The notes below the pieces were generated by a model. The model saw only the letters and a program-made list of their open reading frames with translations, was not told where the DNA came from and did not search any database. From assembly GCF_002356295.1 (NCBI RefSeq), contig NZ_AP018042.1, forward strand, positions 4,372,361-4,436,360: a stretch of 64,000 nucleotides of DNA. The letters are read 5' to 3'. Below are positions 30,741-54,102 of the stretch, one piece after another; positions within the stretch are counted from its first letter, which is position 1, and every line of letters begins with the position of its first letter. This stretch comes from Labilibaculum antarcticum (GTDB taxonomy: Bacteria > Bacteroidota > Bacteroidia > Bacteroidales > Marinifilaceae). The position numbers and the translations under genes are program-made.

Positions 30741-31097
30741 CTATATTGAGTGAAGCTCTTTTATGGCACTCGCTACAACTTCTTTAGAGTTCCCAACAAA
30801 AATTTGACTTCCAATAATTACAACTGGTCTTTTTAAAAATGTGTACTCATTCAAAATTAAATTTTTGTATTCTTCTTCACTTACATCTTTATCTTTTAAA
30901 TTGAGCTCTTTGAATTTAATTGCTCTGCGACTGAATAAACTTTCATAACTACCAGATAATTCCGCCATTTGGTTTAGCTGTTCTTCACTTATTTTATCGG
31001 TCTTTATGTCTTGTAGTATAAAATCTGCACCCGGATTTAGATCTTTGATGATTCTCTTACAAGTTGAACAGCCGGATAGGTGATATATTTTTTTCAT
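30741..31097 (-). CDS. ArsC/Spx-family thioredoxin-fold protein
   Basis: A 118-residue member of the glutaredoxin-dependent ArsC/YffB/Spx superfamily. The N-terminal HLSGCSTCKR carries a CxxC (Cys10, Cys13), and later RRAIKFKELNL and EYTFLKRPVVIIGSQIFVGN match the family, including the cis-Pro region (KRPVV). True ArsC enzymes reduce arsenate, while YffB and Spx have other redox or regulatory roles, so arsenate reductase activity is uncertain. A conserved leader of about 115 nt abuts its start codon, the same one found before the unrelated LMW-type arsC at 34767. Confidence 0.8.
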   Translation of the reverse strand: MKKIYHLSGCSTCKRIIKDLNPGADFILQDIKTDKISEEQLNQMAELSGSYESLFSRRAIKFKELNLKDKDVSEEEYKNLILNEYTFLKRPVVIIGSQIFVGNSKEVVASAIKELHSI

Positions 31098-31214
31098 ATG
31101 ATTATAATTTGATTTTTAGTTGCCATATAGCCTGTCCCGAATTTATCGGGGGAACTTACCATGCTGGAATAATTATCTTCCTGTGTGTCAAAATCACTTT
31201 GGCATGGACGTTTT
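31098..31214 (-). promoter_or_regulatory. Conserved 5' leader element, copy A
   Basis: Read toward the gene: CATGCCAAAGTGATTTT, then GACACACAGGA, an ATTATTCCAGCATGGTAA segment, a CCCGA-TAAAT-TCGGG hairpin, and an A/T-rich run ending at the ATG at 31097. Copies B (34657-34766) and C (53117-53233) share the same order, orientation and distance to their start codons. Here CCATGC and GCATGG can form a 6-bp outer stem. Confidence 0.7.
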
Positions 31215-31222
31215 ATATTCAT

Positions 31223-34561: not shown

Positions 34562-34656
34562 ATAATTAATATAAATCAGAATGAGAAAAGAGCAAGCAGC
34601 ATACTGAAATGTTTTCAGATCTAAGCTCGCACATCTCATCTCTAAATAAGAAATAT

Positions 34657-34766
34657 GAAACGTCCATGCCAAAGTGATTTTAACACACAGGAGGATGATT
34701 ATTCCTGAATGGTAATCCCGAAAGCTTTCGGGACCATATTGCAAATCAAAAACAAATTATAATTAT
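34657..34766 (+). promoter_or_regulatory. Conserved 5' leader element, copy B
   Basis: Between arsR and arsC, directly abutting the arsC ATG. It has CATGCCAAAGTGATTTT, ACACACAGGAGG, ATGATTATTCC, then CCCGAAAGCTTTCGGG, a perfect 8-bp palindrome where copies A and C have CCCGA-TAAAT-TCGGG. An internal AGGAGG precedes a six-codon frame, M-I-I-P-E-W, that could be a leader peptide. CAGGA/TCCTG can pair. Confidence 0.7.
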
Positions 34767-35189
34767 ATGAAAGTATTGGTTTTGTGTACAGGGAATTCAT
34801 GCAGAAGTCAAATGGGTGAAGCAATTTTACGTGAAATTAACCCGGAATTGGAAGTTGTTTCAGCTGGAACAAAAATTGCCGATCAGGTTCATCCTTTGGC
34901 AGTGAAGGCTATGGCCGAAATAGGTATTGATATTAGTTCGTTACGTCCAAAAATGGTTGATGTATTTTTAGAAGAAGGAGTTGATTTCCTAATTTCAGTA
35001 TGTGGTGGAGCAAAAGATGCCTGTCCTGCGTTTTTTGGACCTGTTGGCACTCGCTTGCACATTGGTTTCGACGATCCTGCTTATGCTGAAGGAACAGAAG
35101 AGGAGATTTTTAATGTATTCAGACGTGTACGCGATGAAATTCGTAGAGATTTTGCAAAGTTTAACGAAGACTATATATTGAATAAATAA
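34767..35189 (+). CDS. arsC: Arsenate reductase, low-molecular-weight phosphatase type
   Basis: A 140-residue LMW-PTP-fold arsenate reductase. The P-loop CTGNSCR (Cys7-Arg13) holds the nucleophile, and Cys79 and Cys86 ([10 protein letters not shown]) are the redox pair used with thioredoxin in the S. aureus-type enzyme. DDPAY includes the general acid Asp. It reduces As(V) to As(III), which the next gene's Acr3 expels. The stop overlaps the acr3 start by 1 nt (TAATG). It is separated from arsR by a roughly 205-nt region holding conserved leader copy B. Confidence 0.92.
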
Positions 35190-41782: not shown

Positions 41783-41794
41783 AATCATTGTAGA

Positions 41795-41925
41795 TACTTT
41801 CTCCTTGTCACTTGATCCTTTTACTTTGTTCCTTGTTCCTTGTTTCTTTCTCCTTGTTCCTTTCTCCTTGTCACTTGATCCTTTTTACTTTGTAACTTGT
41901 TCCTTGTGCCTTAATCCTCTTTTTT
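41795..41925. repeat. Degenerate CTTGTTCCTT-type repeat tract
   Basis: A run of near-repeats of CTTGTTCCTT, TCTCCTTGTCACTTGATCC and TTTTACTTTGT fills the space between convergent genes. The same vocabulary occurs at 49565-49636, and its complement at 38757-38935. Confidence 0.55.
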
Positions 41926-42416: not shown

Positions 42417-44249
42417 TTAATAAATCGAATTCGCCTGCATTTTTCTTTTTTTCTGTTCTTCTTTTAGCTGTTTGTTCTCCTTTTTAACTCGCGCACGTTC
42501 TTCCCTTTTCAATTTCTTTATCATTTTCCGTTTGTCGGCCTGTGTCATGCTTACGCGGATATCGTCATTTGTATCGGCAACACCTTGCTTGTTGCTTCTA
42601 CTCGAGTTGTAGTCGGTAGCTCTGTTACCACCATTATTGCCATTATCCACATTGTTATCCATGGCAGATGAAGTAGTTCGGTTACTTCTACTCGAATTGT
42701 AATCGGTGGCTTTGGTTCCGCCACTATTGCCATTATCCGTATTGTTATCTATAGCAGATGAAGTAGTTCGGTTACTTCTACTGGAATTGTAATCGGTCGC
42801 TTTTGTTCCGCCTTCATTTTCATTTCCACCGTTATTATCTGGTTGAATAGAGCTAGAGGTATTACTTCTGCTCGCATTGTGATCTTGTGCTCGCGTAGAA
42901 TTACCTTGACTGTCATTGCCGGTGTCGTTATTCATTACCGAAGAACTGGTGGTTCGGTTGCTTCTGCTCGAATTGTAATCGGTTGCTTTGGTTCCGGATG
43001 TTCCGTCATTATTTCCATCATCACCCGATGAGTCGGCAACACCTTGCTTGTTACTTCTGCTCGAATTGTAATCTGTAGCCACTACACCTCGATTGTTTCT
43101 GCTATTATTTCCATTTTCGCCCTCATTATTCATTACTGATGAACTGGTGGTGCGGTTACTTCTACTAGAATTGTAATCGGTCGCTTTTGTTCCACCCTCA
43201 TTTCCATTTCCACCGTTATTATCTGGTTGAATGGAGCTAGAGGTATTACTTCTGCTTGCATTGTGATCCTGAGCACGAGTGTTTGTCTTGTCAACTTTAT
43301 CATTGTTATTATCTGGTTGAATGGAGCTAGTGGTATTACTTCTGCTTGCATTGTGATCTTGTGCACGAGTGGCCGAAGACCCTCCTGAATTATTCGCTCC
43401 TTCGGATAAAGGCATTTCTCCCTGATTGCTATTTTGCTGATACATTGGATTCACGCCTCTGCTATTTTTCTGAAACATAGGGTTATCCACTGCTTTTCCA
43501 TTGCCTTGATAAAGAGGATTGGAGCTTCTTTTCGAAGATTTTCCGCTGCAACAAGACCCTAGCGCAATGCTCACACCAAAATTCACATTAAGGCTCGAAA
43601 AATTCAAACTTTCTGTCGAAAAAGGAATTTCCCCAGCTAAATCAGGATCAATTCTGCCTTCGGCATCAATGGCCTTCGAAAGATCTTTGCTGTAGAAGTT
43701 CATGTCCGAGTTTAAAGTGGTAACATATTCACTGCTCACAAATAACTGGAGGCCTGTGCAAAGTTCCGTCTTAATTTTTGCGCCCAATCGTGCACTCAAA
43801 GCTTTCATACTCTGCTGATCCATTTTGCCGATTGTTATATCGGTGTTGGCTTGCAGCATCTTAATTTCTGGAGTGCTGTTAACCGATAAGCCTGTTCTAC
43901 CATACAATTCAATTGCGAATTTCTTCGAGCCCAAAGAAAATTGCGGACCCATATCAAAAGTGGTGCTGGTGAACTGATTTCTTGATCCCTGCACCGCACC
44001 AAACTCTTGCCGCACGTTAAAGGAAGAATGTTTAGCTCCAAAACCGATCGAAAGTTTCTCACAAAAGCTTTTGCTAAGCGATATTTCACTATTGAAACCA
44101 TCTTTTGCAAAATCTTCAAAACCGCCATTGGGCATGCTGATTCCATTCACAAAATCGATAGATAAACGGCCTGATTTTGGATTCTCATTTTGTCCGTAAA
44201 TGGTACTTGCTATTAGTAAGATCGAGGTGATTAGTAGGTATTTTTGCAT
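42417..44249 (-). CDS. Repeat-rich outer-membrane protein with basic C-terminal tail
   Basis: A 610-residue exported protein (signal ending TIYGQ, about residue 20). Residues about 20-235 look like an eight-stranded-type outer-membrane barrel (RLSIDFVNGISMPNGGFEDF, KIKTELCTGLQLFVSSEYV). Residues about 240-285 have three NPxY/F-Q units (NPLYQ, NPMFQ, NPMYQ). Residues about 293-560 hold nine copies of a motif AxDxNxSRSN in two flavours, RAQDHNASRSN and KATDYNSSRSN, in Asn/Gly/Ser-rich spacers. The last 45 residues are a Lys/Arg/Glu helix. No family is recognised. The repeat region should be disordered and, if outside the cell, variable. Confidence 0.7.
   Translation of the reverse strand: MQKYLLITSILLIASTIYGQNENPKSGRLSIDFVNGISMPNGGFEDFAKDGFNSEISLSKSFCEKLSIGFGAKHSSFNVRQEFGAVQGSRNQFTSTTFDMGPQFSLGSKKFAIELYGRTGLSVNSTPEIKMLQANTDITIGKMDQQSMKALSARLGAKIKTELCTGLQLFVSSEYVTTLNSDMNFYSKDLSKAIDAEGRIDPDLAGEIPFSTESLNFSSLNVNFGVSIALGSCCSGKSSKRSSNPLYQGNGKAVDNPMFQKNSRGVNPMYQQNSNQGEMPLSEGANNSGGSSATRAQDHNASRSNTTSSIQPDNNNDKVDKTNTRAQDHNASRSNTSSSIQPDNNGGNGNEGGTKATDYNSSRSNRTTSSSVMNNEGENGNNSRNNRGVVATDYNSSRSNKQGVADSSGDDGNNDGTSGTKATDYNSSRSNRTTSSSVMNNDTGNDSQGNSTRAQDHNASRSNTSSSIQPDNNGGNENEGGTKATDYNSSRSNRTTSSAIDNNTDNGNSGGTKATDYNSSRSNRTTSSAMDNNVDNGNNGGNRATDYNSSRSNKQGVADTNDDIRVSMTQADKRKMIKKLKREERARVKKENKQLKEEQKKRKMQANSIY
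42590..43372 (-). repeat. In-frame coding repeats of the surface protein
   Basis: Nine related units, spaced about 65-115 nt, each encoding an AxDxNxSRSN motif. The DNA is similar enough between units (GAATTGTAATCGGT on the plus strand) that slippage or recombination could change copy number while keeping frame. Confidence 0.75.
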
Positions 44250-44571: not shown

Positions 44572-46173
44572 TTAATTACAGATGCCCACAATATCATTAA
44601 CGGTATTCTTGTATTCGAAATAGTTCGCCACGTTAATCGATCCTCTTACGCTATATTCGATATAGTCGGAACCTACCTCCAGAACTACGCCACCAAATTG
44701 ATTTGCTCCCAATTGGGATTGAATTTCCTCACCACTTAAAGGAATGCCTTCATCATTGGCAGCTCTCAATAAAACGCGCTGTGCAAAGGGAATGCGTACA
44801 TTTTTTAGTTTCTGTATCACATCAAAAACTTCTACCGAAGTATAAGGCGGTACGGTTATTACCCGATTTGAAGAAACCGTTTGTGTTTCAGTATAAGTTT
44901 TACCCTTGTTCGTACCTGTTCCCGAACCAAAGGCTCTTGTTCTACTGGTTCCTATGGTGCCAGAAGCACTTACACTTGCACCAATTCCAAATATTTCACC
45001 ACCGGCTTCCGCTTCCACTGTCGCCTCTTTACTATCTGTAGTACTCGAATAAAAGCTAGCTGTTTCTTCTACGTCAATGCTGACTGTTTTGGTTTCTTCT
45101 CTGTTGTTACCTACATAATATTCTCCCGTAGCCCCCGAGCAATTATGAATGGTTTGGTCAAAAGCAAAATCCATTTGTGCAGGAGGCAAAATGGCTGCTG
45201 AATATTCTGTACCCAAATCGTTGAACTCCCAGGTAATATTGGCAGCTATAAAAGTAAAGGGTGCTCCACCATTATAAAAAGAGAATGTCCCTCCTGAAAG
45301 CGAACGTATTTCTATCGTACCCTTTGCTGTTTGTTCCAAAATAAACTTGTGTTTATCTCCAAGGACAAAATTAGGATTGTCATCGGTGTTTTCGATATTA
45401 TAAGCAAGCTTTCTTTTATCATTTATTTCCAAATATGAATTCTTATGCGCTGTTTTAATGGCATAAATATTCTCTTCAATCTCAATGAAATAAAATTTTT
45501 GAAGTTTGCTGTAAATATTAGTTGGATCGTTGTGGTAAAGAGTTGAATTAATTATAAAAGTACCACTCATTTCACTAAAATTACCGACAATCTCTGCTCC
45601 CAAATAATTTGTAAGGCTAAAGCCTTCGTAGGCCAAATAATAAGGCATATCTGCATTTAACTTCATAGGGTATTGTACATGCGGTTTTTCACTTTCTATT
45701 TTTATGGTTCTGTTTGTGGAGTTGATAATAAATTTAGAGCCGTACATTGTTTCCATTGTAACATTTTCGGCATCGAATACCCTAGCTTCAATGGCTACAC
45801 CTTCACTAAATTCAGTGATTTGTTCTTCTGTAAGATCTTTGCGTGACAATTTAAAAAGAGCCACATGCGTATAAGGGTCTATCTGAATATTGCTTTGTGT
45901 AAAAGTGCTAAGATCACCAATAATAGTAAAGCTCACTTTACTTGGCTTATAACCAAGAACGGCTAATTTTCGAGTATCAATTGCAACGCCTATTTCACCG
46001 GCATCAACAGGAATGCTGTTTAAGGTTGAATCTGAAATGCCTTCAAATCTTGTTGTGCCATTCTCAACTTCAAGATCTATATCTGCAGATCGGGGCTCTT
46101 CACTTACTTCAAAAGTACAGCTCGCAAATAGGGCGATGGAAAAAATGAAGGATAGGAATATTATTTTATACAT
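44572..46173 (-). CDS. Putative aerolysin-like pore-forming lipoprotein with beta-trefoil-like domain (paralog 1)
   Basis: A 533-residue lipoprotein (lipobox LFASC, Cys19). Residues about 35-165 are a domain I do not recognise. Residues about 185-325 look beta-trefoil-like (YAIKTAHKNSYLEIND, FILEQTAKGTIEIRSLSGG). From MDFAFDQTI (334) on, the protein resembles ETX/MTX2-aerolysin pore formers: Ser/Thr-rich strands, a putative insertion hairpin with alternating small and polar residues about 383-412 (GIGASVSASGTIG), and TVPPYTSVEV at 440-449. Cys345 and a terminal Cys (GICN) could form a disulfide. It lies 90 nt after its paralog, likely one operon. Fold assignment is by eye. Confidence 0.55.
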   Translation of the reverse strand: MYKIIFLSFIFSIALFASCTFEVSEEPRSADIDLEVENGTTRFEGISDSTLNSIPVDAGEIGVAIDTRKLAVLGYKPSKVSFTIIGDLSTFTQSNIQIDPYTHVALFKLSRKDLTEEQITEFSEGVAIEARVFDAENVTMETMYGSKFIINSTNRTIKIESEKPHVQYPMKLNADMPYYLAYEGFSLTNYLGAEIVGNFSEMSGTFIINSTLYHNDPTNIYSKLQKFYFIEIEENIYAIKTAHKNSYLEINDKRKLAYNIENTDDNPNFVLGDKHKFILEQTAKGTIEIRSLSGGTFSFYNGGAPFTFIAANITWEFNDLGTEYSAAILPPAQMDFAFDQTIHNCSGATGEYYVGNNREETKTVSIDVEETASFYSSTTDSKEATVEAEAGGEIFGIGASVSASGTIGTSRTRAFGSGTGTNKGKTYTETQTVSSNRVITVPPYTSVEVFDVIQKLKNVRIPFAQRVLLRAANDEGIPLSGEEIQSQLGANQFGGVVLEVGSDYIEYSVRGSINVANYFEYKNTVNDIVGICN

Positions 46174-46263
46174 AGTAATAATTGTTTAGACGTGATTAGA
46201 AAATGAGAAATCCATGACATGGAAAATCTTTTAAAAAGCAGGTAATTTGCTTACTGAATCGAA

Positions 46264-47943
46264 TTAATTACAAGCTCCTTCAATATCATGCAGGTTGTTG
46301 TTGTATTCAAAATAGTTGGCAACATTTACCGCCCCCCGAATACTAATAACGATAAAATCGCTGCCTACCTCTGTTACAACTCCCCGAAACTGGTTAGAGA
46401 TAAGCTGAGCCTCAATTTCCGGACCTGTCAGGTGTTTTTCATCATTAACAGAACCCCTGATGATGAACCGTTGAACAAAAGGGATGCGTACATTTTCGAG
46501 CTTTTGTATCACATCAAAAACTTCTATGGCACTATAGGGTAGAACGCTAACTTTTCTGCTAGCAGATACTTCCTGCGATCCTTCATACTCTATTCCTTGG
46601 TTGGTCTTTTTTTCTTTTCCCCATTCGGTTGTTGTTTCTGTTCTTAGGGTACCCGATGCACTAACACTTGCCCCAATGCCAAAAAAGCTTGCTTCTGCCG
46701 AAGCCTCAACAGTAGCTTCCTTAAAATCAAATTTGGATGAAAAAAGGTTAATGCTTTCTTCGTATGATATACTGGTGGTATTGCTTACAGTAGTAGCAAT
46801 ACCTACCTCGTAATCGCCCGTGGCACCTGAGCAATTTATGATGGTCTGATCAAAGGCAAAATCCATTTTTGTAGGTGGTATAATTGCCGGTGAATATTTG
46901 GTGCCCAAATCGTCGAACTTCCAGCTGATATTATCAGCAAAAATATTGAACTCTAAATCATTTGTTGGGTCGGTATCAAAAAATATTTTGTATCCAGTCT
47001 CAAATGGATCTCCATTGGTGCTTAAATAGGACTCGCTGCTAAAGAGACGAATTTTTACAGTGCCATTATTGGTCTGTTCCAAAAGAAAATCGCTTTCACC
47101 GATTAGCATTCTGTTGCTGGTGGGATCGTCTACTCCCCAGCCAACAGCAATTTTTTCGCCGTTATTTCCTCCGTTATTCCCGTATGTATTAAATACATCA
47201 GCATCCAAATAACCATAGTCAACGTAATCCCAAGTGTAGGTGTAGATTTTTATTTTGTAAGTAAAGTCTCGTTCATAATTGGCAGTTTTTTCAAAATAAA
47301 ATTGGTACTTCCCACTTAAAAGCCCTAGCTCACTGCCTGTAAAGCCTTCGTAATCACTACTGATGCCTAGGGTTTTGAATTCTGTGTCAGCAGCCGTCTG
47401 CATAAAGTAGGGGATATCCGGATTAAAAGACAAAGGCTTTAAAATATAGGGTAGTTTGCTCTCTATTTTTAAAGTGCGGTTGGTTGCATTAATAATGTAT
47501 CTCGAGACCGTTCTGCCATCAATATAATCACCGACCTCGTTAAATACGGTAACGCTTATTGGAACCCCATTGCTAAAACCTTTTAATTCGGCATCGCTTA
47601 GGTCTTTTCTTTTAATGGTAAAGTTTGCCACATGCGTAAATTCATCCACGGGAATGTCTACCTGAGAAAAGGCACTTAACGAACCTTCAATGCTGAAACT
47701 GATTTTACTTGGTTTGTAAGCCCGAATCGCAAGGATTCGTGTATCTACTGCAACTCCTATTTCACCCAAATCAATAGGGATTGAAAGTAAGGTTTCATCA
47801 GAAATTCCATTCGCAATTTCGCCGGGTATGCCTAATTCAAGCTCTGCAACTTCATCAACTTCCTGTATCAGTTCAAACTTACAGCTGGTAAGTAGTGCCG
47901 TAAAAATCAATAGAATAAGTAGGGCATTATTTTTTATTTTCAT
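46264..47943 (-). CDS. Putative aerolysin-like pore-forming lipoprotein with beta-trefoil-like domain (paralog 2)
   Basis: About 559 residues from ATG 47943 (lipobox LLTSC, Cys21); the longer frame to 48015 would bury the signal peptide. Same order as paralog 1: unknown N-domain (DETLLSIPIDLGEIGVAVDT), trefoil-like domain (FLLEQTNNGTVKIRLFSSES), MDFAFDQTIINCSGATG, a putative insertion hairpin (FFGIGASVSASGTLRTETT), VLPYSAIEVFDVIQKLENV and a terminal GACN. The strongest conservation between the two lies in the pore-former-like C-terminal third; the trefoil-like domains diverge, as expected if they recognise different ligands. First gene of the operon. Confidence 0.55.
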   Translation of the reverse strand: MKIKNNALLILLIFTALLTSCKFELIQEVDEVAELELGIPGEIANGISDETLLSIPIDLGEIGVAVDTRILAIRAYKPSKISFSIEGSLSAFSQVDIPVDEFTHVANFTIKRKDLSDAELKGFSNGVPISVTVFNEVGDYIDGRTVSRYIINATNRTLKIESKLPYILKPLSFNPDIPYFMQTAADTEFKTLGISSDYEGFTGSELGLLSGKYQFYFEKTANYERDFTYKIKIYTYTWDYVDYGYLDADVFNTYGNNGGNNGEKIAVGWGVDDPTSNRMLIGESDFLLEQTNNGTVKIRLFSSESYLSTNGDPFETGYKIFFDTDPTNDLEFNIFADNISWKFDDLGTKYSPAIIPPTKMDFAFDQTIINCSGATGDYEVGIATTVSNTTSISYEESINLFSSKFDFKEATVEASAEASFFGIGASVSASGTLRTETTTEWGKEKKTNQGIEYEGSQEVSASRKVSVLPYSAIEVFDVIQKLENVRIPFVQRFIIRGSVNDEKHLTGPEIEAQLISNQFRGVVTEVGSDFIVISIRGAVNVANYFEYNNNLHDIEGACN

Positions 47944-48020
47944 AGTAAAAAAGATTTGGTTTTTAAATGGTCTAATGTGTTGGTTATTGATACTATAAAT
48001 GTTTAAACCATGCAATTTAC

Positions 48021-49564: not shown

Positions 49565-49636
49565 TTCACTGTTTTTCTTGTTCCTTTCTCCTTTAAACTT
49601 GTCACTTTTTCCTTGATCCTTTCTCCTTGTCTCCTC
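49565..49636. repeat. Degenerate CTTGTTCCTT-type repeat tract, second
   Basis: TTCTTGTTCCTTTCTCC-type units between the AsmA terminator and stop, the same vocabulary as 41795-41925. Confidence 0.45.
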
Positions 49637-52600
49637 TATTCATACTCCTTAACATTCTCTTTAAGCGATTCCGAAATCAGCTTTTTCAAACGTAATGTTT
49701 GCTTCTCCAGTGCCCCTTGTTTTTTTGGATTGTACAAATATTTATACTTGCACTCCACTAGGTCGTACTTTAAATTATCTATTGTTCCGGTTACATTTAG
49801 TCCTAGTCGAATAGGCAGTGGAGTATCTGTTACCGATATGTGATAGTTAAAGCTATTATCCATATTATGACGACCAGAAATAACTGCTTTATAATTGTCC
49901 ATCACAATAAGGAAAGGATATAGATCAACTTCATCTTTAAATAGAGTCATCTCAACACTAAGGCTATCTATCACATTTACTGTTTTTTTCTTAAACAGTA
50001 GTTTCTTGGCTATCATGCCGAATGTTTCGGTATCCATAAGTGTTAGTTTCTGTCCCTGGAAAGCAGCCGCACCACGAATTGTAGATTGTTTAAGAGAATA
50101 ATCGCTCTTAAGATATGTTTCTCCAGCCAAATGAAATTCACCTTTTCCTTTGAATGATTTTAGCATTGGAATCATTGTATTAACGGAAGGAACCAGGGCA
50201 ATTAGTTCAGCAACATCAATATTTAAAAGGTGAAAGTCGATGCCGCTAAAAAGGTGATTTGTTCTGTCGGAACGATACATTGCCGTTAGCTGCATATTTG
50301 CTGCCTTGTTTGTAAAACCCATCTGATCGAGAATAAGGGTGCCATCTTTAACGGTTAGTCCCCCTTTAATATTTTCGATGATATGATTATTCACCACAGC
50401 CATGGCAATTGTTGTTTTTAATCGAATTTCGATCCCTTTTGGTACCATAAACGGATCGTCTTCCGACGCAACAGCTTTATTGGCGGCAAGAGTTGAGTCT
50501 TGACTGCCCATGCCGTTAAAAATGTCCATGAGCTGATATACATCGGTATTTTTAGAGACTAAATTAAAGTTTCCTTTCAGTAATGCCTGGTCGTTAAGAT
50601 ATTTTGAAATGTCGGTAAGCTGACCGGTAAGACTAAAGTCGGAATTGCCTAAAATTAAATCCGCTTTCTTAATCTCCATACTGTCTTGATTAAGTGTAAA
50701 CGATATGTTAGGAATTTCACCTTTTAGCTGTTCACTCAAATTATAAATTGCATCGGAGAAATTGATTGCCATTTCGGGCTGCCATTTAAGGAGAACCTTA
50801 TTTTGCGAGTCGTCGTACTTCAAATTTGTTTTAGCATACAGATTTTTAGCATCAAACAGGATGGAATCCTTGCCGGCTATTGAAATTTTATCACTATTCA
50901 TTGTCGAATTGATAAGCGCAATCTCTTGTTTTCCGTTAAGGCTTGGAGTGTATTCAAATCGTCCGTTTGCATTATTTGCGCTAACCGATAAAGTGTCGGC
51001 CACAGCATAAAAGCTACCCAATTTAAAATTGCATGACGAAATTGGTGAGGAGGCTCCTTTTGCGAGATTATTGATGTCGACAGAAAGCTCAATATTTTGA
51101 GCCGCGGCACTCATCGTAGGAGATAGGCTTGTGGTAAAGTTTGGTGTATCAATTTTGATGTTTGCAAACAGAAGGTTTTTGTCTGCTCTGGCTTGGCTCG
51201 GTAAATTAAGCTTAATTTTTGCCGAAGGAAGGTTTATCTTTATCGAGTCGTTATAGATTGCATCAAAATTCCGGGTATTAAAATCACCGGTTAAATAGAT
51301 GCGGTGATATTTCTCTTGATCCAAATCAGATTGAGAAAATCGGGTATGCAGATTTCCATTCACCAAACCCCGAACAATTACATTTTGATCTTTTGGGATA
51401 AACGACTGAAAATCGGCTAAGTGAATATCACCCTTCGAATAGAGGTCGTATTGCAGCGTTTCCATAATATCCGAGATATTTCCTGTAACAGAAACAGTGC
51501 TATTCAGTATTTTGGCAGAACTACTCGTTACAGTAATATTCGAAGTCTGGTTTTTATTTACATCGACCTTTGCAGACATCGATAATTGAATGGCCTTCAC
51601 TCTTGGATAAGCTTCATATTTAATTTCTCCCTTGTAGTATTTCAAGTTTGTTGTTACAAGGGGAGTGTTCGTGTCCGAATACACTCCGGTTACCGATCCT
51701 GATACTTGTGCATAGCCCTTGGCAACCAAATCTTTTAGCGGAGCCGAATATACTTTAGGAACAAGAGCTGTAATTTTTTCCACATCCAATTCGTTGGTGG
51801 TGTAGTGAATGTCTATGGCTATCGAATTATCGGACTGTATTTTTACAGGACCATTAAAAGCTACTTCTTGCGCATCATTCACCATAAGCTTTGCCTCTTT
51901 AAAGTCATAAGAATTTTCTGCTATGTTTACAGAAAAAGGCAAATGGCTGTCAACTTTTAGCTTCGATAAAATTGTATCACCAGCCATTGAAACAGACATT
52001 TCCTTACAAACAAGTTGTAAATCGGAATTGAATAGATTTTTGTCCTGACCCTTCGAATTCATTTTTAGATCACAGTTTTTGGCATCAATACAAAGAGCCA
52101 TTGAATCGGATGTTGTAAACAGCAATTTATTTACTTGCAGATCCAAATCAAAATACTGTTTCTCGTCGGTGTATTTAAACTCGAGCGCAGCATTTAAGTG
52201 GTTAATAGCCGCCTTTCTAAATGTAGTCTCATCGGTATAATTGGCATTAAAATTCTTAAATACTACATTGCTAATGTCGATATTACCAAATGATGAGGCT
52301 TCAGAATCAGCTTCTGTTGAATCGGAACTACTTTTAAAAATATCGAAATTAGAGTTGCCCTGAGAGTCTATTTTGAAATTCAAATAACCATTTTCAACCA
52401 AAAATGGGTTAAGCCTTATATTGTCGTGAAATAAGTACGATAGTACATCTAGCGAGGCGAAGCATTTTTTGGCGTATAACAGAGTATCTGTTTTTACAGA
52501 ATCATTATTCTCTGTTAAACAGAGATTCGTTAGCTCCATGCCAAAAAACGGATAGGTACTAAAAAAAGTTGGTTCAACTTTTTCGATACTAGTAGTGCAG

Positions 52601-52747: not shown

Positions 52748-53116
52748 CTATAGTTTGCTAAATGATTTTGTGTTTCCGTAAGCGTCCTCATACTTTAAGG
52801 ACGATGCCGTTAAGTCTGTAATGGTATATGTTTTAGGAACTAGACCACCATTCACGATTATATGAATCTGCTCTAACTGATCTTTTGTTATGGTCCAGGT
52901 AAATTCCTGAGCTTCATCTTCTGTAACATCATCGAAAGTATCCCAAGTAGCACCTGATTTGTTAGAGTCGTATCTTTCGAATAATGTACCACTTTTCCAT
53001 TTGCCAATAATTAATGTCTGATCAAAACTGGGGTGAATATCTTCTTCTTCAGTACATGAGGTTGAGAAAAGTGCTACTAAAGCAATGCTTAAAAAAATTA
53101 ATGCGATCCGTTTCAT
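52748..53116 (-). CDS. Small lipocalin-like lipoprotein
   Basis: A 122-residue lipoprotein (lipobox FSTSC, Cys21, followed by TEEED). The mature part has the pattern of Bacteroidota lipocalin-like lipoproteins: LIIGKWKSGTLFERYDS near the start, FTWTITKDQLEQI, then TYTITDLTASSLKYEDAYG. Its binding partner is unknown. It forms an operon with the AsmA gene, so an envelope lipid role is plausible. Conserved leader copy C directly abuts its start codon. Confidence 0.75.
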   Translation of the reverse strand: MKRIALIFLSIALVALFSTSCTEEEDIHPSFDQTLIIGKWKSGTLFERYDSNKSGATWDTFDDVTEDEAQEFTWTITKDQLEQIHIIVNGGLVPKTYTITDLTASSLKYEDAYGNTKSFSKL

Positions 53117-53233
53117 ATGTTTACAATTTGTTTTTTAGTTGTTATATAGCCTGTCCCGAATTTATCGGGAACATTACCATCAATCAATAATCATGCCTAT
53201 GTGTATTAAAATCACTTTGGCATGCTCGTTTCA
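53117..53233 (-). promoter_or_regulatory. Conserved 5' leader element, copy C
   Basis: Toward the gene: CATGCCAAAGTGATTTT, AATACACATAGG, ATGATTATTGAT, GATGGTAA, CCCGA-TAAAT-TCGGG, then ACAGGCTATATAACAACT and an A-rich run to the ATG at 53116. Same order and distance as copies A and B. The outer stem is weaker here than in copy A. Confidence 0.7.
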
Positions 53234-54102
53234 GTTGTTTATTAAATACACCAATTTGTTACTCAAAAATAAACTTCAAAAATACGACTTTATTGTAGTA
53301 ATAATGCACGAAATAGTATTTGTTAATTATGAAATATTATTTTTCATACTTTCGGCATTTGCAGTATTGTTAGAACTGGATTGATAAGATGACTGGATGA
53401 TTAAGATGATTGTAGGCTGCAATAATTTATGATTCCTTATTACTACGGTTTAAAATCGGTATTCTCCGGATCTGCATACCAAGCAAGGAATGCCGGTCAG
53501 CGGTTTTTTTTTAGCCTGACGTTGCTTCCGTACGCCCGCAAACTAAATATTCCCCGAAACAATCCACCAAGCGATTAAAAATATCAGGTGATTATTATTT
53601 TGTCGATTCGGGGTCTGAATTGCAAGAAATGAAAATGAAGCTAAAGCAAAAGATTAGAATATTTTAAATCCAGTTGGCTAAAGCCAAACTGCAATAGATA
53701 AACCCCCAACAAAGCATTTACTGAGATAAGGAGAAAAGCAAAGCATCTATTGCTTTGCTTTCAAGCAACTGATAACATGAAATTAATAAATAGGCTTTAG
53801 CCACATAAAATAAATGATATGAGTTGAGGATTTAGGGATAACATGCACAGAAAATCAGGCAGTACTTACCGAACTGAGTTTTGGACTAATCTATCAATTA
53901 GTTTACTGATATAAATTCCCTCCTGCTTTTTAAAAGACAACATTGTCCTTGATTTAGTTAATCCATAATGCCTTGTAAACAAAAACAAATGATAATCAGA
54001 TGACACAAAACACATGACAAGTCATGCATCGATGTTTATTTAGTATAGCATATCTTATTAAAAAAAATCTAAATTTATAGGCCTGCACACACTTGAACGA
54101 AA
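53234..54102. other. 869-bp gap with decayed repeats
   Basis: No gene seen. It has a TTATTATTTTGTCGATTCGGG motif related to those at about 48296, 49439 and 55951. A perfect 11-bp hairpin, AAAGCAAAGCA-TCTAT-TGCTTTGCTTT, spans 53735-53761. GGCTAAAGCC and GGCTTTAGCC occur near 53672 and 53794 as an inverted pair. The promoter of the MFS gene was not identified. Confidence 0.5.

Follow-up and report, generated by a model that had tools for sequence, protein, structure and literature searches.

The three conserved leaders in the window, a stretch of 64,000 nucleotides at positions 4,372,361-4,436,360 of the 5.72-Mb single-contig genome of Labilibaculum antarcticum, are probably non-autonomous mini-elements that are mobilised in trans by an RNA-guided recombinase of the IS110 family. 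The initial annotation took them for a riboswitch, a protein-binding leader or a leader-peptide device and kept a mobile repeat as its fallback; the fallback turned out to be correct.

Anatomy of the window copies

All three copies were found where the initial annotation had placed them, each in the orientation of its gene, and CATGCCAAAGTGATTTT was indeed identical in the three. With the left-hand start-like triplet and the last base before the ATG of the gene taken as limits, copy A (31098..31216, minus strand) lies upstream of an ArsC-family gene (30741-31097), copy B (34655..34766, plus strand) has an ArsR-type regulator gene on one side and an LMW-phosphatase (arsenate-reductase-like) gene on the other, and copy C (53117..53234, minus strand) lies upstream of a small lipocalin-like lipoprotein gene. 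The start codons of the ArsC-family gene (31095..31097, minus), the LMW-phosphatase-like gene (34767..34769, plus) and the lipocalin-like gene (53114..53116, minus) are each contained in the right-hand ATGAA of the copy. Because most units also open with a second, left-hand ATGAA, both unit ends carry the same five bases. In copy B the left-hand junction (34655..34659, plus) is identical to the right-hand one in all five bases; copy A reads ATAAA there, with ATA for the left ATG, and copy C reads CTGAA, with CTG. In the aligned copies a typical unit begins with ATGAAACG and its last base stands just before ATGAAA, and the ATG that follows is the gene start in many of them. Units are mostly 94-119 nt long in this genome, and those in the window measure about 115 nt.

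The claim that a conserved element with RNA-like helices stands directly 5' of start codons was right. The hairpin on which it had partly been based, a CCCGA..TCGGG stem said to be kept while its loop changes, is an optional insert, and the copies differ by swapping of this module: copy A carries the CCCGATAAATTCGGG insert and copy B the CCCGAAAGCTTTCGGG insert, and among 28 aligned copies 13 have none, 10 have the CCCGAAAGCTTTCGGG type and 5 the CCCGATAAATTCGGG type. The six-codon frame M-I-I-P-E-W is present in copy B as had been described; it falls within a conserved ATGATTAT core and, by eye, is lost in other subfamilies.

Copy number and distribution

A sequence profile detected 57 copies at E <= 0.002 in the 5.7-Mb genome, which correspond to 51 sites including 6 tandem pairs, a copy number far above chance. 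The alignment of copies from this genome was made of 16 exact and 12 near matches, after two near pattern matches that are not elements (L019 and L026) had been dropped. The profile matched in 25 of the 59 genomes searched, the L. antarcticum genome and all eight same-genus relatives included, the per-genome counts being lower bounds, limited by how many candidates were scored.

A 20-base pattern matched at least 120 stretches of a public collection, 80 of which were inspected. Among the matches listed, in which not every stretch shows both unit ends, were Bacteroidales contigs, Algoriphagus, Cyclobacterium, Lunatibacter, Salegentibacter, Carboxylicivirga and others, and the subfamily of the window copies occurred in public Labilibaculum contigs. 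One match in Clostridia looks like chance. At MAG loci such as L129, L138 and L155, long GAGGTTGGAAGTTA-type repeats were seen 3' of the 5' motif, which suggests larger passengers in related elements.

Occupied and empty sites in congeners

The copies are insertions. When syntenic stretches were compared across six congeners (G002, G003, G004, G006, G007 and G008), one and the same gene was found empty, with a single unit, with tandem units or with a unit and a transposase (tnp) gene, usually with ATGAA at both junctions, demonstrating insertion polymorphism as well as tandem growth. At the gene MKPILIVEDEPG.., the product of which appears response-regulator-like by eye, a unit is present in G002 and G006, and G007, G008 and G004 have a clean empty site (..AAAAGATGAAACC); G003 is also without a unit and the L. 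antarcticum genome (G000) has a decayed remnant. The start of an ABC-permease gene, for which there was no readable site in G000 and G003, is empty in G006 and occupied by one unit each in G007 and G008. In G004 a unit of the G007/G008 type follows a second unit-like stretch. In G002 a unit and then an IS110 tnp element stand there, between the permease gene and an ABC ATPase gene, and the tnp element ends at the ATGAAACG with which the permease gene starts.

At the places of the window copies the picture was similarly varied. No unit precedes the orthologous arsC in any of the six congeners, and this place is not a clean empty site because the congener starts read ATGAGA and some of the bases preceding them are absent from G000. 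Between one and three units occupy the site of copy B in the five congeners that could be aligned there (all but G003), and two or three tandem units of different subfamilies occupy that of copy C in four.

These comparisons bear on the regulatory readings. A riboswitch or protein-binding leader controlling the downstream genes would explain the gene-oriented position before start codons and the conserved helices, but we consider it highly improbable: the listing of downstream genes suggested in the initial annotation gave unrelated genes, neither orthologous nor joined by a pathway, sister-species orthologues do without the element, and tandem arrays mix different subfamilies. The comparison with Rfam, also suggested there, gave no match at gathering scores within the window, and the element RNA in five other loci matched no family, the one hit (E 0.22) being due to chance. 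Translational coupling through a leader peptide encoded by the MKRPCQSDFDTQ.. frame is barely credible. This frame extends over at least 30 codons in 14 of the 28 copies and its stop sometimes overlaps the next ATG, but it stops before 20 codons in 8 of the 28, and by eye the ACACACAGG motif is in different frames across subfamilies. Riboswitch and leader peptide were accordingly set aside on the empty sites, the unrelated genes and the broken frames; the element could still affect expression.

Target sequence and gene starts

The right-hand ATG opens an ORF of at least 60 aa at 40 of the 51 sites in this genome, as against 61 of 255 background ATGAAA sites in sampled DNA, when ORFs at the sites are read in the element's own direction. 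One further site qualifies by hand (131 aa), and the remaining 10 of 51 have no ORF of this length. The base before the left ATG was also counted, in 129 units taken from every fetched locus, of which 79 were non-tandem. In the main subfamily, named CATATG, T precedes the left ATG at 56 of 60 non-tandem sites, making the target TATGAA, compared with 51 of 125 native ATGAA starts (Fisher p 1e-12; relatedness among the units makes the counts non-independent, and an orthologous insertion in sister species may be counted repeatedly). The base in the CATCTG subfamily was C in 4, T in 3, A in 3 and G in 1 (n=11), and in the CATGTG subfamily T in 5 and A in 3 (n=8); in these two the target base before the ATG does not track the guide.

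The mini-elements have a specific target, ATGAA or TATGAA, and a fixed orientation, as IS110-family elements do. The target is the ATGAA sequence itself, because the right-hand ATG of elements with a tnp gene begins an ORF of at least 60 aa at only 3 of the 6 sites checked (L253, L271 and L272). The tnp elements are less tied to gene starts than the mini-elements, the start-codon bias of which probably owes much to selection.

Association with IS110 transposase genes

Since the mini-elements lack a tnp gene and the elements beside such units in other genomes encode a DEDD_Tnp_IS110 / Transposase_20 recombinase, we regard the former as a non-autonomous relative and not as an IS110 insertion sequence. 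In contigs of Algoriphagus, Salegentibacter and Carboxylicivirga, an ORF that opens with the IS110-type ..RGCGIDVHK stretch, or with its beginning, follows immediately on the 5' motif of the units, and the Algoriphagus protein (319 aa) matches PF01548, PF02371 and NF033542. A PF01548 match of some kind was found in 12 of the 59 genomes. The L. antarcticum genome itself gave no PF01548 match and no tnp of the same clade, so that mobilisation there would be past or unseen. Among the nine same-genus genomes an intact same-clade tnp occurs only in G002 (L253), and G005 has fragments. The L253 protein (407 aa, NF033542) matches the IS621 transposase (chain 8wt6) at E 5e-13 and is 56-57% identical to the Algoriphagus protein and to that of G479, a genome of the Cyclobacteriaceae, the family of Algoriphagus boritolerans; the G007 matches (28-36% identical) and the second tnp of G002 (G002:C38, 36%) were counted as other IS110s on account of their low identity. 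When the phylum was searched for tnp at E 1e-70, the single genome matched among 395 apparently belonged to the species of the query itself.

A unit end (CANATGAA) was directly upstream of the tnp gene in 10 of 12 tnp loci, five of the 12 belonging to G479, and 8 also had a CATNTG-type segment. The five tnp copies of G479 occupy four places, one of which holds a tandem pair; four copies are identical over 951/951 bases and the fifth (L267) over 921/951. Each has a unit upstream and an element end ..AAATTATATACANATGAA. The right-hand ATG opens frames of 319 codons at L271 and 335 at L272, both counted within the locus, so that two of the four G479 sites are at gene starts; it opens 10 codons at L270, 14 at L267 and 43 at L265 of Algoriphagus. 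At L270 and L267 the other reading frames suggest that the element entered a coding sequence near an ATGAA. A 19-base pattern located 23 places in G479, comprising 5 units linked to tnp, 9 solo units followed by an ORF of 139-465 aa (including L279), 2 solo units before frames of 33 and 10 codons, 1 tandem unit and 6 chance matches. The solo unit L277 is identical to the tnp-linked unit L283 over 122 nt.

It is unlikely that the mini-element is a separate repeat and merely a favoured landing site of IS110. Five different unit sequences precede the nearly identical tnp copies of G479, so that the unit may be such a site, and the unit at the G002 permease is similar to the one that stands alone in G007 and G008, which would fit a later arrival of the tnp. 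Against this, the right end of the tnp element (AAATTATATACANATGAA) is of the same type and its target is likewise ATGAA, and the 5' leader of the Algoriphagus tnp element carries the same CACACAGGGGGATGATTAT motif. Movement by a different enzyme, such as a Y1 (REP-like) transposase of the IS200/IS605 type that works on single-stranded hairpins, would fit the short hairpin-bearing units, the fixed flanking ATGAA and the head-to-tail arrays, and the L. antarcticum genome has six Y1 transposase matches. However, none of these six loci of ~3.3 kb contained a convincing unit (best E 0.3), so the Y1 gene linked to an IS200/IS605 or REP/RAYT element was not found here, and junctions of this sort go with IS110 tnp genes in several genera. 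We consider movement by another enzyme distinctly unlikely, and the Y1 transposase in particular was rejected as mover on these six loci.

Two further repeats were noticed beside transposase genes. A repeated stretch that reads IPPFQGYSFFDGRLFDGLKS lies at 1311-1529 and 2044-2247 of L117, next to a Y1 transposase gene, and is perhaps a separate REP-like family. At L253, L265 and L267-L272 the tnp gene is followed by a stretch that again opens with ATGAAA and in which GAGTATTGCC..GAGCATG is conserved between L253 and L265; this stretch may represent a non-coding RNA belonging to the IS110 element itself.

Covarying helices and a candidate guide strand

An internal CATNTG segment covaries with the right end CANATG of the same unit. 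The motif CCATNTG occurred in 109 of 174 units picked by a regular expression, and its variable base was complementary to that of the unit's own end in 101 of the 109. Helices were counted in 28 non-redundant units, 3 of 31 having been dropped as they showed no clear motif; these units are related, and pair changes in them are not independent events. Helix P1 (AAACGNNCC.. with ..GGNNGTT) made standard pairs at 171 of 252 positions in register, compared with 33-43% when the strands were slid. The total and positions 2, 3 and 6 stood out from shuffles, pairing at positions 4, 5, 7 and 8 was no better than in shuffles, and many units had tandem G.A mismatches. In P2 the variable pair held in 24 of 28 units (shuffle mean 12.2), a value reached by 0 of 2000 shuffles. 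The signal came from this explicit count of P1 and P2 pairs: RNAalifold found changes on both sides at 1 of 18 pairs in the 28 copies of this genome and a weak signal on both strands in 31 divergent units. The bias between G-T and A-C pairs does not decide the strand of the RNA.

Within one element, the strand ..GTTCCATNTGG is able to pair with the right end as well as with the left start. Box C has the sequence RUGAUGA, and the conserved ATGATTA of the units may be likened to it by resemblance only. IS110 guides are described with box C and D motifs, in a TIGR-Tas context, in the accessible part of one report (PMC12045711). IS621 guides, according to the accessible part of another (PMC11208160), bind one strand on one side of the core and the opposite strand on the other side. 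The candidate guide strand of the mini-unit differs in that it pairs with a single strand to the left and right of the junction. Because the two geometries differ, any bridge RNA in the mini-element is a putative one.

Proposed mechanism and comparison with known elements

Taken with the tnp association, these features suggest the following course for the mobile mini-element. It inserts at ATGAA (TATGAA for the main subfamily), oriented as that sequence, and most of the copies that persist lie at gene start codons. A DEDD recombinase of the IS110 family, provided in trans and directed by a structured RNA from the element itself, would join the junction of the element's right and left ends to ATGAA. 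After insertion ATGAA flanks both sides, the old start opens a short frame within the element, and the gene would gain a new start from the A/T-rich right end and the second ATG, so that translation may be preserved. Repeated use of ATGAA sites would give rise to the tandem arrays. A more specific version, which we propose only tentatively, is that the element is a guide-RNA gene which is mobile but lacks a recombinase of its own. A single uninterrupted strand of its RNA (..GTTCCATNTGG) would pair with the element's right and left ends alike, a geometry that the consulted portion of the IS621 report does not describe, and the RNA would steer an IS110 recombinase to TATGAA, the insertions at gene starts rebuilding the translation start of the host gene.

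The mini-elements share with the IS110 family (IS621 and ISEc21, with their bridge RNA or seekRNA) an associated DEDD recombinase with long non-coding regions, a short specific target with fixed orientation, and a structured segment that may read the element's own end; they differ in being units of ~100 nt without tnp, mostly at start codons and in arrays. Like bacterial MITEs, they are short, present in many copies, devoid of transposase and apparently dependent on a related IS for movement in trans, with ends common to an autonomous element. Terminal inverted repeats, however, were not found by eye in the aligned units, the inverted pairs that were found run from end to interior, and unlike MITEs the mini-elements are specific for site and orientation and tied to IS110. 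MITECca01 and MITEPye1 are linked to IS982 and IS1182, respectively, which are other IS families, in the portions of the sources consulted. A miniature element also occurs together with an IS of the IS110/IS1111 group in Coxiella, where IS1111 targets QMITE2 by way of a REP-like sequence; the part of that source consulted describes no start-codon link. We recognised no IS110-derived start-codon element in the open-licence PMC literature.

If the proposed mechanism is true, RNA-guided IS110 recombinases gave rise to very small passengers that are mostly harmless because they land on start codons and restore them. The guide variants that occur naturally (CATATG, CATCTG and CATGTG), with their matching ends, would then offer a compact test system for how IS110 RNAs read donor and target, and some of the gene starts and 5' leaders now annotated in these bacteria would derive from elements.

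Other repeats in the window

Several further repeats were noted in passing. Upstream of copy C, at 53.6-53.8 kb of the window, there are pieces related to the ~350-nt tandem repeats of G007, which form an array at 50.2-53.3 kb of the joined sequence of the G007 stretch. A 610-aa ORF (42417-44249, minus strand) includes several repeat families with a 90-nt period at 42574-43370, and short arrays of CTTGTTCCTTT-like 14-nt units occur at 41785-41920 and 49572-49644. At 44572-48015, two adjacent minus-strand ORFs of 533 and 583 aa contain repeat pairs that are 75-78% alike and 1692 nt apart; this ORF pair is probably a gene duplication.
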